Source: an uncultured Lachnospiraceae bacterium (GTDB lineage: Bacteria; Bacillota_A; Clostridia; Lachnospirales; Lachnospiraceae). Taken from it: DNA of 10,017 nucleotides. The stretch is taken from assembly GCA_902780985.1 (NCBI GenBank), contig CACZHN010000149.1:1-10017 (forward strand), given 5' to 3'. Position numbers and translations under genes: made by a program. Position 1 is the stretch's first letter. Every line of letters starts with the position of its first letter. The notes under the pieces were generated by a model. That model was not told the DNA's origin. It saw only the letters and a list, made by a program, of their open reading frames with translations, and made no database searches. This document shows, in pieces, positions 4,022-9,918 of the stretch.

Positions 4022-4036
4022 GATACGGAGAAATAC

Positions 4037-4900
4037 ATGAAAGAAGCTTTCGTAGATGCAATAATAGATACATTAAAGCTCATCCCTTTTCTGTTTCTTA
4101 CATACTTGCTTATGGAGCTCCTTGAGCACAAGACCAGCGAGAAGACCAAGCACGGCGTAGAAAAAGCCGGCCACCTCGGACCGCTGTTCGGAGGTATTCT
4201 GGGAGCAGTACCGCAGTGTGGTTTTTCAGCCGCTGCGGCATCTCTTTATTCGGGAAAAGTTATCACGGCAGGAACGCTTATTGCCATATTCCTTTCAACT
4301 TCCGATGAGATGCTGCCTATCATGATTTCCGAGAGATCGGGTCTGGGATTCATCGTCAAGGTACTTCTTATAAAAGCAGTAATAGGTATTACCGCAGGAT
4401 TTATAATCGATGCGGTGATAAAGATTTATGACAGAAGAAAATCGGTAACTCATGATTTCACAAAAGAAACTCACGAGCATCACCATTGTGATACAGAGGA
4501 CGGTGTACTGGTTTCATCCCTGAAGCATACAGCGGGAACAGTCCTCTTTATCTTTATATTCTCATTGCTTATTAATATTCTCGTGGAATCTTTCGGAATA
4601 GAGAAGCTGTCGAATCTTGTGATCAACAAGTTCTTCATAGGACAGCTGCTTACGGGACTTATCGGACTGATACCTAACTGTGCGGCATCCATAGTCCTTA
4701 CGGAAATGTATCTCACCGGAGTTATCGGCTTCGGTCAGATGATGTCGGGACTCCTTGTAGGAGCAGGCGTGGGAATAATGGTACTGATAAAGAATAATAA
4801 AAATGCGAAGGAAAACCTTCGCATCATTATCACTCTTTATCTTCTTGGAGTTCTGTTTGGGACTCTGCTGGAGTTTCTCCCTGCCAATCTTTTTCTTTAA
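4037..4900 (+). CDS. Putative heavy-metal/manganese exporter (ArsP_2-type permease)
   Basis: A 287-residue polytopic protein with about eight hydrophobic segments split by a hydrophilic loop (about 130-163) containing the metal-ligand run HEHHHCD (146-152). The two halves each carry a related motif: PQCGFSAAAASLY (59-71) and PNCAASIVLTEMYL (213-226). This indicates an internal duplication, as is common in transporters. The arrangement and motifs match my recollection of the family called ArsP_2 or putative manganese transporter. The substrate is unproven; the name 'arsenic efflux' rests on homology only. GGAG lies 6 bases before the ATG. It follows xth by 15 bases and is probably the last gene of that operon. 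Its last 23 codons run antisense to the end of the acyl-CoA ligase, and codons 256-263 also encode that gene's terminator hairpin. No riboswitch can fit in the 15-base gap upstream. Confidence 0.82.
   Translation: MKEAFVDAIIDTLKLIPFLFLTYLLMELLEHKTSEKTKHGVEKAGHLGPLFGGILGAVPQCGFSAAAASLYSGKVITAGTLIAIFLSTSDEMLPIMISERSGLGFIVKVLLIKAVIGITAGFIIDAVIKIYDRRKSVTHDFTKETHEHHHCDTEDGVLVSSLKHTAGTVLFIFIFSLLINILVESFGIEKLSNLVINKFFIGQLLTGLIGLIPNCAASIVLTEMYLTGVIGFGQMMSGLLVGAGVGIMVLIKNNKNAKENLRIIITLYLLGVLFGTLLEFLPANLFL
4793..4824 (-). terminator. Intrinsic terminator of the acyl-CoA ligase, embedded in the exporter gene
   Basis: Read on the minus strand, ATGCGAAGG, a TTTT loop and CCTTCGCAT form a perfect 9-bp hairpin (4803-4824), followed by a T-rich tract (TTTTATTATT). 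It begins 5 bases past the ligase stop. On the plus strand the same bases code for N-A-K-E-N-L-R-I of the exporter, and the hairpin lacks a U-tract there, so termination should act only on the minus-strand transcript. Confidence 0.85.
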
Positions 4901-6841: not shown

Positions 6842-7066
6842 ATGTTCGAAGAAATCAAGGCAATTATCGTTGACGTACTTAACTGTGATGAAGAAAAGGT
6901 CGTACTTGAGGCTTCTCTTTCAGAAGATCTTGACGCTGATTCTCTTGACGCTGTAGAGCTTGGTATGGCTATCGAGGAGAACCTCGGTGTAGCTATCTCA
7001 GATGAGGATCTTCCAAACATCAAGACAGTACAGGATCTTGTTGATTACGTAGAGGAACATAAGTAA
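6842..7066 (+). CDS. acpP: Acyl carrier protein
   Basis: AcpP carries growing acyl chains on a phosphopantetheine arm during fatty-acid synthesis. The 74-residue, strongly acidic protein has the universal attachment motif [10 protein letters not shown] with Ser34 as the modified residue. It also has the usual helix I ([13 protein letters not shown]) and a closing [19 protein letters not shown] at 6828-6833, 8 bases from the ATG, fixes the start. It is the first gene of the operon behind a consensus promoter and is followed by accD after 20 bases. Its wording ([19 protein letters not shown]) is that of the fatty-acid carrier, as opposed to a polyketide or D-alanine carrier. Confidence 0.97.
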
Positions 7067-7086: not shown

Positions 7087-7302
7087 ATGAAGCTTTTTGG
7101 ACGAAAGAAGAGCACTCCTGTCAGAAAGAGTGCATCCAGAGAGACTGAAGTGTTCATGGAGCCGGCAAAACAAAGTGATGAAGATATATATCCGGAGTCG
7201 GAAAGCGATGAAAGCTTTACCTGCTCCGGATGTAACTTTGTTACAACGCTTTCAGAGATGAACGCTTTCAGAGATGAAATCAAATCTTTTCGTATGTCCT
7301 AA
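7087..7302 (+). CDS. AccD N-terminal fragment produced by the frameshifted gene
   Basis: Seventy-one codons from the real start. Residues 1-58 belong to AccD: a basic start (MKLFGRKKS), an acidic linker (EDIYPESESDES) and the first zinc-ribbon pair CSGC. The last 13 residues (NAFRDEIKSFRMS) come from the second repeat copy and the wrong frame. It overlaps the second fragment by 29 bases. Alone it would have no catalytic function. Confidence 0.6.
   Translation: MKLFGRKKSTPVRKSASRETEVFMEPAKQSDEDIYPESESDESFTCSGCNFVTTLSEMNAFRDEIKSFRMS
7245..7276 (+). repeat. 16-bp tandem duplication inside accD
   Basis: AACGCTTTCAGAGATG at 7245-7260 is repeated exactly at 7261-7276, and two more matching A residues extend the match to 18 bases. 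Sixteen is not a multiple of three, so the second copy shifts the frame. Confidence 0.97.
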
Positions 7303-7990
7303 ATGCGGAAAACACGAGAAAATCTCAGCGGTACGAAGAGTGAGAGCATTAGCCGACAAGGGAACATTCAGAAAACTCAAAATTGATGTACCGGTTATAG
7401 ATCCGCTTAAATACCCGGACTACAATACAAAAATAGAAAAACTCCAGAAGGACACGGGACTTGATGAAGGTGTTCTTTCGGGAGTATGTGAAATAGAAGG
7501 AATGAGATGTGTTGTTGCTGTTATGGCAAGTGAGTTCCTTATGGGAAGTATGGGAATCGCAGTAGGCGAGAAGATTACAAGAAGTTTTGAAATCGCCGAA
7601 AAGATGAAGCTCCCTATCATTATCTTCACTGCCAGCGGCGGTGCCAGAATGCAGGAGGGAATCCTCTCACTTATGCAGATGGCAAAGACATCGGCGGCTG
7701 TTAAGAGATTCAGTGAGAACGGAGGACTTTATGTATCGGTTCTTACACATCCTACAACAGGCGGTGTAAGCGCAAGCTTTGCAACTCTTGCCGATATAAC
7801 ACTGGCTGAGCCGGGAGCACTTATAGGCTTCGCAGGACCGCGTGTTATAGAGCAGACAATAGGACAGAAGCTGCCTAAGGGATTCCAGAGATCCGAATTC
7901 CAGCTGGAGCACGGATTTGTGGATCAGATAGTAGCAAGGTCAGAGATGAGGGAAGTACTTGCAAGAATTCTCAGATTACATTCTGCATAA
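7274..7990 (+). CDS. accD: AccD C-terminal fragment with the carboxyltransferase core
   Basis: This open frame of 238 residues holds the second zinc-ribbon pair (CPKC, residues 8-11) and the whole crotonase-like carboxyltransferase core. The core includes TASGGARMQEG (119-129), THPTTGGVSASFA (158-170) and GFAGPRVIEQTI. Its only in-frame ATG near the break, at 7274, has no convincing ribosome site (CTTTCAGAG precedes it). If translated by re-initiation after the upstream fragment, it would lack half of the zinc ribbon, which in the E. coli enzyme is needed for activity. It ends 48 bases before accA. Some annotation pipelines would call this segment alone as accD. Confidence 0.7.
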   Translation: MKSNLFVCPKCGKHEKISAVRRVRALADKGTFRKLKIDVPVIDPLKYPDYNTKIEKLQKDTGLDEGVLSGVCEIEGMRCVVAVMASEFLMGSMGIAVGEKITRSFEIAEKMKLPIIIFTASGGARMQEGILSLMQMAKTSAAVKRFSENGGLYVSVLTHPTTGGVSASFATLADITLAEPGALIGFAGPRVIEQTIGQKLPKGFQRSEFQLEHGFVDQIVARSEMREVLARILRLHSA

Positions 7991-8030: not shown

Positions 8031-8038
8031 CTATAAGA

Positions 8039-8986
8039 ATGACAATTAGAGAGATTGACGAGAAGCTTACTCAGCTGTCAAAGCATCTCGAAGAAGCAAC
8101 ATCAAACGGTGATACAGTTCTTGCCCGTGAGCTCGGTAAAGAATACGAAGCTGTTCGCAAGGAAGCTGTTAGCCTGACAGCCCATGATAAGGTCTTTCTC
8201 GCAAGACATATTAAGAGACCTAAGGTTGATGATTATATAAGCGCCATATTCGATGATTTCTTTATTCAGAGAGGAGATTATCTCGGTAAGGAAGATAAGA
8301 GTATATACGGCGGAATCGCAATGTTCCACGGAACCCCTGTTACCGTACTGGGTCACAGAAAGGGAAAGAACATTACGGAAAATATGGAGTTCAATTTCGG
8401 AATGCCGGAACCGGAGGGATACCGTAAGGCTCTCAGAATGATGAAGCAGGCTGAGAAGTTCGGCAGACCGATTATCACATTTATAGATACTCCGGGTGCA
8501 TATCCGGGAATCGATGCCGAGGAAAACGGACAGAGCATAGCCATATCCAAGAACCTGGCTGAAATGAGCGCCCTTAAGGTGCCTGTCATTTCCATAGTAA
8601 CAGGAGAAGGATCCAGTGGAGGAGCTCTTGCCATCGGTGTAGCCAACGTTGTATACATGCTGGAAAATGCGGTTTACTCCGTTCTCTCACCGGAAGGTTT
8701 CGCTTCAATTCTTTGGAAGGATTCTTCCAGAGCGCCTGAAGCCTGTGATCTTATGAAACTCACAGCCGATGACCTTTACAACTTCGGTGTTATCGACGGC
8801 ATCATCAAGGAACCGATCGGTGGTGTTCATCACAATCCGGATGCGGTTTATAAGGAAATAGAAGAACGTATATCCAGAGATCTGGCAAGATATAAGAACC
8901 TGACTCCGGATGAAGTTGCAAATGACAGATATGAGAAGTTCAGAGATATTGATCTTCTCGTGAGAGAGAGAAGAAAGTTCTCATAG
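8039..8986 (+). CDS. accA: Acetyl-CoA carboxylase carboxyltransferase alpha subunit
   Basis: AccA pairs with AccD as the carboxyltransferase that produces malonyl-CoA in the cytoplasm. The 315-residue product has the helical N-terminal region expected of AccA (REIDEKLTQLSKHLEEA). The crotonase-fold core follows: NFGMPEPEGYRKALRMM (119-135), FIDTPGAYPGIDAEE (148-162), TGEGSSGGALAIG (188-200) and YSVLSPEGFASILW (213-226). It ends with GGVHHNPD and a basic tail. Length matches family members of about 315-320 residues. It follows accD by 48 bases and precedes fabK by 11, within the acpP operon. The gene is intact even though accD, its obligate partner, is broken here. That argues against long-term loss of the enzyme. 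accB and accC must lie elsewhere or further downstream. Confidence 0.97.
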   Translation: MTIREIDEKLTQLSKHLEEATSNGDTVLARELGKEYEAVRKEAVSLTAHDKVFLARHIKRPKVDDYISAIFDDFFIQRGDYLGKEDKSIYGGIAMFHGTPVTVLGHRKGKNITENMEFNFGMPEPEGYRKALRMMKQAEKFGRPIITFIDTPGAYPGIDAEENGQSIAISKNLAEMSALKVPVISIVTGEGSSGGALAIGVANVVYMLENAVYSVLSPEGFASILWKDSSRAPEACDLMKLTADDLYNFGVIDGIIKEPIGGVHHNPDAVYKEIEERISRDLARYKNLTPDEVANDRYEKFRDIDLLVRERRKFS

Positions 8987-8997
8987 CGAGGTGTGAC

Positions 8998-9918
8998 ATG
9001 CTGTTAAATGAAATGTTAGGTATCAAGTACCCTATTATTCAGGGTGGTATGGCAAATATAGCAACAGGTAAGTTTGCAGCTGCTGTTTCGGAAGCAGGCG
9101 GTCTCGGACTTATCGCATCAGGCGGTTACGATGCGGCAAGGATCGAGCAGGAGATTGCAGAAGCAAGAAAGGCAACGGATAAGCCGTTCGGTGTAAACCT
9201 TATGCTTCTCAATCCTGATGTGGATAACATTGCAGATCTTCTTGCAAGAGAGAATATCAAGGTTATCACAACAGGTGCGGGTTCTCCGGGAAAATACATG
9301 GAAGCCTGGAAAGCATCGGGTGCAACCGTAATTCCGGTTGTTGCCAGCTGTGCACTTGCTAAGCGTATGGAGAAGATGGGAGCTGATGCTGTTATCGCAG
9401 AAGGCGGTGAGAGCGGCGGCCATGTAGGTGATATGACCACTATGGCACTTGTTCCTCAGGTAGTTGACAGTGTAGAGATTCCCGTAATCGCTGCAGGCGG
9501 TATCGCAGACGGACGTCAGTTCGCAGCTGCTATGTGCCTGGGTGCTATCGGAATCCAGATCGGTACATGCCTCCTTGTAAGTGAGGAATGTCCTGTACAT
9601 GAGAATTATAAGCTGGAGCTTATCAAGGCAAGAGATAACAGTACGACTGTTACAGGAAGAAGCCTTCAGGCTCCTGTAAGAATCATAAAGAATGCTATGG
9701 CAAGAGAGTATCTGAAGCTTGAAGCAAATGCAGCTTCCCGTGAAGAACTCGAGCAGATCACTCTCGGTGGTCTCAGACGTGCCGTAGTTGACGGAGATAT
9801 GAAGACCGGTTCCGTTATGGCAGGTCAGGTATGCGGTCAGCTTAAAGAAATCAGACCGGTTGCCGATATCCTTCGTGATATGTACGAAGAAGCTAAGAAG
9901 GTAGTGATTAATCTTTAG
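8998..9918 (+). CDS. fabK: Enoyl-ACP reductase II (FMN-dependent)
   Basis: FabK reduces trans-2-enoyl-ACP with NAD(P)H and FMN, the last step of each elongation cycle, replacing FabI in many Firmicutes. The 306-residue TIM-barrel protein has YPIIQGGMANIATG (11-24), GVNLMLLNP (65-73), VIPVVAS, the catalytic loop EGGESGGHVG with His142, IPVIAAGGIADGRQFAAAM and GIQIGTCLLVSEEC. These match FabK and the wider nitronate monooxygenase-like flavoprotein family. The fatty-acid operon context and the EGGESGGHVG loop favour FabK over nitronate monooxygenase. GAGG at 8988-8991 precedes the ATG by 6 bases. It begins 11 bases after accA and is followed by fabD after 24 bases. FabK enzymes are known to be insensitive to triclosan. 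Confidence 0.95.
   Translation: MLLNEMLGIKYPIIQGGMANIATGKFAAAVSEAGGLGLIASGGYDAARIEQEIAEARKATDKPFGVNLMLLNPDVDNIADLLARENIKVITTGAGSPGKYMEAWKASGATVIPVVASCALAKRMEKMGADAVIAEGGESGGHVGDMTTMALVPQVVDSVEIPVIAAGGIADGRQFAAAMCLGAIGIQIGTCLLVSEECPVHENYKLELIKARDNSTTVTGRSLQAPVRIIKNAMAREYLKLEANAASREELEQITLGGLRRAVVDGDMKTGSVMAGQVCGQLKEIRPVADILRDMYEEAKKVVINL

Follow-up and report, generated by a model that had tools for sequence, protein, structure and literature searches.

The window, by which we mean the whole 10,017-nucleotide stretch analysed here, carries AACGCTTTCAGAGATG as two exact head-to-tail copies at 7245-7276 on the forward strand, as are the accD frames, acpP, accA, the tgt duplication and the identical stretches at both duplications described below. 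Copy 1 occupies 7245-7260 and copy 2 7261-7276, with 2 bp (AA) in common with the right flank, so that the period-16 match continues to 7278. As originally predicted, this 16-bp duplication splits accD between its two zinc-ribbon Cys pairs, which have a role in binding zinc. The 5′ frame (7087-7302, 71 aa) starts at ATG 7087 and encodes the first Cys pair (CSGC), then runs out of frame to a stop at 7302, while the 3′ frame (7274-7990, 238 aa) starts at ATG 7274 and encodes the second Cys pair (CPKC) and the carboxyltransferase domain; the pairs that AccD holds in one frame thus lie in separate frames. The 238-aa frame was recognized as AccD by TIGR00515 (NCBIfam; 325.6 bits against a cut-off of 317.45), and no Pfam family matched the 71-aa frame. 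We considered and rejected a restart of translation at ATG 7274: the start is directly preceded by AGAG, an immediate position that is poor spacing for a ribosome site, and the product would lack the first Cys pair.

Conservation of accD among relatives

The nearest named loci were those of an uncultured Clostridia bacterium (L001, 87% AccD identity) and of a Eubacterium sp. from water deer rumen (L002, 85%), with Lachnospiraceae ranking next; the source of the window resembles rumen Lachnospiraceae. We searched 61 genomes of the genus of L002 for accD, among which G011 was closest by accD DNA score (85%) and G034 matched in two pieces (87% and 92%). The 16-bp unit is present once in the DNA of L001-L008, G011, G002 and G055, and the aligned close relatives have one copy's worth of protein (P0001, 296 aa; P0002, 295 aa; P0003, P0005 and P0006, 294 aa). 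In these five proteins 15 residues separate the Cys pairs, the canonical spacing given for the gene; the claim that removal of one copy restores a 295-residue AccD is supported only through these relatives (294-296 aa). The top protein match among the best 120 of 7015, P0001, is 98% identical over 238 aa and is an intact 296-aa AccD with both Cys pairs; the protein database was clustered at 90% identity, so close cluster members are not shown separately. In a structure search P0002 matched solved AccD chains; the best match spanned residues 45-294, and the Cys pairs lined up.

A single accD match without stops was found in 56 of the 61 congeneric genomes. The other five comprised one without a match (G047), one with a weak match at a contig end (G056), one with the gene split over two contig ends (G013), one with a single TAG in the accD frame (G052) and G034, in which accD is split on one contig. 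A second accD, which would remove the puzzle of essentiality, was sought in these congeneric genomes, where the strong match was single apart from the split genes of G013 and G034 and was missing in G047 and G056. Weaker second matches were mostly frames of 465-566 aa with 25-29% identity; these are presumably subunits of acyl-CoA carboxylases or decarboxylases. Two irregular AccD records were seen as proteins only: P0241, whose frame ends early at 115 aa, and P0062, a 244-aa AccD on a 7,888-base contig that starts just before the second Cys pair. A 24-base pattern had no matches in viral_contigs, and a literature search found no description of this locus.

A second exact duplication and the rarity of both

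A further exact tandem duplication, absent from the original prediction, lies in tgt (1218-1277). Its unit is 30 bp, so it remains in frame and adds 10 residues; it is missing from G011 and G034, and the Tgt proteins P0121 and P0122 are without the added residues. Two other observations concern tgt. One Tgt seen as a protein only (P0213, encoded on a 26,089-base contig) is the same as that of the window save one residue up to residue 308, then diverges and ends at 312 aa. At 246-469, stretches of 158 bp and 65 bp, one mismatch apart, are identical to G034 within a region of ~85% identity, which by its sequence reads as an exchanged or chimeric tract.

The accD duplication is beyond chance, because of 1000 dinucleotide-shuffled versions of the window only 9 had any exact tandem duplication of period 10-60, and the window itself has two (16 and 30 bp). 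Across 80 control loci, exact duplications of period 16-120 numbered 7 in 873,829 bp, compared with 2 in this 10 kb. Such duplications were similarly sparse in other samples: one place (24 bp, in L107 and L149) in 342,326 bp of further loci, some overlapping others; none of period 16 or more in 64,003 bp of L111-L114; and, at a period of at least 16, a single 33-bp case over 118,287 bp in G034 and a single 24-bp case over 218,404 bp in G011. Computed from the 80-locus control rate, the chance of a second duplication is ~0.08 rather than 0.003, because the first duplication had prompted the choice of window.

Indels, selection and identical blocks in sister genomes

Alignment of the 10 kb with G011 revealed three indels inside genes of the window: the two duplications (30 bp and 16 bp) and 6 bp missing in yajC. 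The same three places differ from G034, with extra gaps at 1746 (3 bp), at 7982 (5 bp, at the end of accD), at 8037 (before the accA start) and at 9918 (at the end of fabK). The yajC difference (window 1417) is in frame, leaves 6 bp fewer than in both G011 and G034, and is ordinary divergence; the only coding insertions observed relative to both sisters are the two exact duplications. The neighbouring acpP (6842-7066) and accA (8039-8986), as well as fabK, have no internal indel relative to G011. Elsewhere in the alignment, a convergent arsenic-efflux-type gene and an acyl-CoA ligase gene overlap by 71 bp at 4830-4900, likewise in G011 (L111 6839-6909), and window 4022-4883 is unaligned in G002 and G055.

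Downstream of the break, the accD codons are under purifying selection (dN 0.049 and dS 1.06 against G011, compared with 0.033 and 1.16 for accA). The relaxed selection of a decaying pseudogene was not seen there, and any real break must therefore be very recent.

Both duplications sit at long stretches identical to the sister genomes. At accD, a 99-bp stretch identical to G034 (7146-7244) ends one base before the duplication, and a 74-bp stretch identical to G011 (7177-7250) reaches into it. At tgt, the duplication is held in stretches that are identical when read through both copies: 1174-1282 for G034 (79 bp in G034) and 1185-1282 for G011 (68 bp in G011), the latter made up of a 63-bp block at 1185-1247 that carries on to 1282 via the second copy. 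Ranked by length, the blocks that carry the two duplications come first and second among the 69 exact blocks in common with G011 (74 and 63 bp), and second and third among the 84 in common with G034. Positions within 10 bp of a G011 block of at least 63 bp make up 1.8% of the window, and 3.9% for G034 blocks of at least 74 bp; the association was noticed after the fact and the block counts were made post hoc. Synonymous difference among the window, G011 and G034 is 0-0.06 over the last 32 codons before the accD duplication and ~0.52 after it. We rejected codon-level constraint as the cause of the identical block: the same-codon fraction, a measure biased by two-codon residues, is 0.68 at residues 31-45 and 0.44-0.53 over residues 46-295, and is also 0.68 at residues 1-15.

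In G034, accD has a clean, unmarked deletion that starts from the base matching window 7245 (L087 1498-1501; G034 contig C143, ~15509) and removes 144 window columns, or ~128 bp relative to the single-copy relatives. A second unmarked, frame-breaking deletion in G034 affects an NFACT-family gene (contig C143, ~40412-40433) and is not at a long block. Matches in the fetched G034 contigs were found for 90 of 160 G011 frames, three of them frame-broken (accD, the NFACT-family gene and one at an N-run); conversely, 93 of 101 G034 frames matched in G011, again with three broken (accD and two at or beside G011 N-runs). Eleven G011 frames had a match in the window, and of these one, accD, was frame-broken there. 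A 646-bp contig encodes P0242, seen as a protein only, in which AccD residues 1-35, as in G034, are fused to a PF09269 domain, which we take to be of the Obg C-terminal type. In the contigs fetched for G034 and G011, none of the 12 N-runs abutted an identical block (at most 15 bp in common). This is a small control, as only ~5 of them lie in or beside regions with an aligned counterpart among the fetched contigs; we accordingly dropped the idea that contigs break at identical blocks as a general rule.

Origin of the doubled unit

Among the four origins that had been proposed for the doubled unit, an assembly error fits best. We think it probable, on sequence comparison, that the second 16-mer arose in metagenome assembly and would be absent from the cell. 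This reading is favoured because the only coding insertions relative to both sisters are exact duplications, and because the longest G011 blocks carry both of them and the G034 accD deletion starts from the same base. The single copy and intact frames of the relatives, the lack of decay downstream of the break, the sparseness of exact duplications in the control loci, the second unmarked deletion in G034 and the chimeric P0242 also speak for it. The two duplications sit where the window is identical to congeneric species over 60-100 bp, and at such places a read graph built from mixed species should branch. Two pieces with true end overlaps of 16-18 bp at accD and 30 bp at tgt may have been placed one after the other, with the overlap left unmerged and so written twice. 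The living organism would then carry an ordinary, intact accD. According to the metaMIC study, conserved sequence common to distinct organisms is a cause of misassembly, and misassembled contigs have more short tandem repeats (PMC9661791). The present case would resemble the misassemblies described there in that its lesions fall where related species have identical sequence, in its short tandem repeats and in coming from a gut or rumen sample, but differs in being a small local duplication with no inter-genome join. Against an assembly error stand the N-runs, of which only ~5 were testable, and the NFACT-family deletion away from long blocks; failure at block ends is therefore not supported as a general pattern. 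The tgt duplication, moreover, preserves the reading frame, which is what selection would require of a genuine duplication, although this would happen by chance in one case out of three.

A real tandem duplication, very recent or confined to a minority, that inactivates accD in some cells, which either tolerate it on rumen fatty acids or are doomed, is possible but unlikely. Small tandem duplications of 10-30 bp occur as spontaneous mutations, and the exact head-to-tail copies with their 2-bp microhomology resemble an ordinary event of this kind, in which microhomology is little or absent; unlike such events, they come two to a 10-kb contig, one of them in a gene expected to be essential, and the second private duplication requires a second event. 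A minority variant, we reason, should not become the contig consensus. The 71-aa and 238-aa products were absent among the best 120 of 7015 protein matches and from a 2-hit search, a result that is weak for the 238-aa product given the 90% clustering. In principle a cell could grow on exogenous fatty acids without accD: five of five sister genomes have the YloV and DegV families, presumably FakA-like and FakB-like. In Staphylococcus aureus, accD-null strains are viable on supplied acids (PMC7240157, PMC6102330), including branched-chain acids (PMC7240157). These auxotrophs have lost the same carboxyltransferase subunit, but were laboratory or drug-selected and fatty-acid-fed, and the lesions given in the available portions of the two studies are a deletion, an intron insertion and a stop, with no tandem duplication among them. 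The neighbouring acyl-CoA ligase, which had been named as making the tolerance idea worth testing, is no sign of compensation, as the same neighbour adjoins an intact accD in G011.

Explanations by a recombination scar or by a reversible switch are both very unlikely. The exchanged-looking tract before the duplication, with its abrupt rise in synonymous difference, makes a scar at its end conceivable: an identical block shared with sister-species DNA would act as the homologous anchor, and an illegitimate join at its end would leave the window with a duplication and G034 with a deletion. Transformable bacteria are described as undergoing homology-facilitated illegitimate recombination (PMC6382021), and the case is alike in placing a lesion beside a stretch common to related DNA, but unlike in that no donor segment was identified here and the stretch also occurs in a sister that is intact. 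Lesions lie at the tract end in two of the three genomes (the window and G034), yet in G011 the tract is free of lesions, and a cell with such a scar in accD should die unless it has fatty acids; we regard this origin as improbable, and slightly more so its extension, in which recombination between sister rumen species leaves scars at tract ends and one end within accD is hit repeatedly, giving transient fatty-acid auxotrophs. The slippage-reversible off state of the original prediction, in which accD would be switched as the 16-bp unit is gained and lost, is barely credible. A doubled unit in a coding region, not a multiple of 3 in length, is all that points to it. A slippage contingency locus has many short units whose copy number varies among relatives, but here there are two copies only, the relatives whose DNA was compared have one, no copy-number series was found, and the tgt duplication, a multiple of 3, is unable to switch frame.

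If the duplication were real, a wild rumen bacterium would be getting by, for some time at least, with no malonyl-CoA synthesis of its own. If, as is most likely, it is an assembly error, it is of little biological interest and a useful caution: the apparent loss of an essential gene in a metagenome contig can stem from an overlap that was written twice, and sites of this kind can be flagged without reads when sister species are compared.
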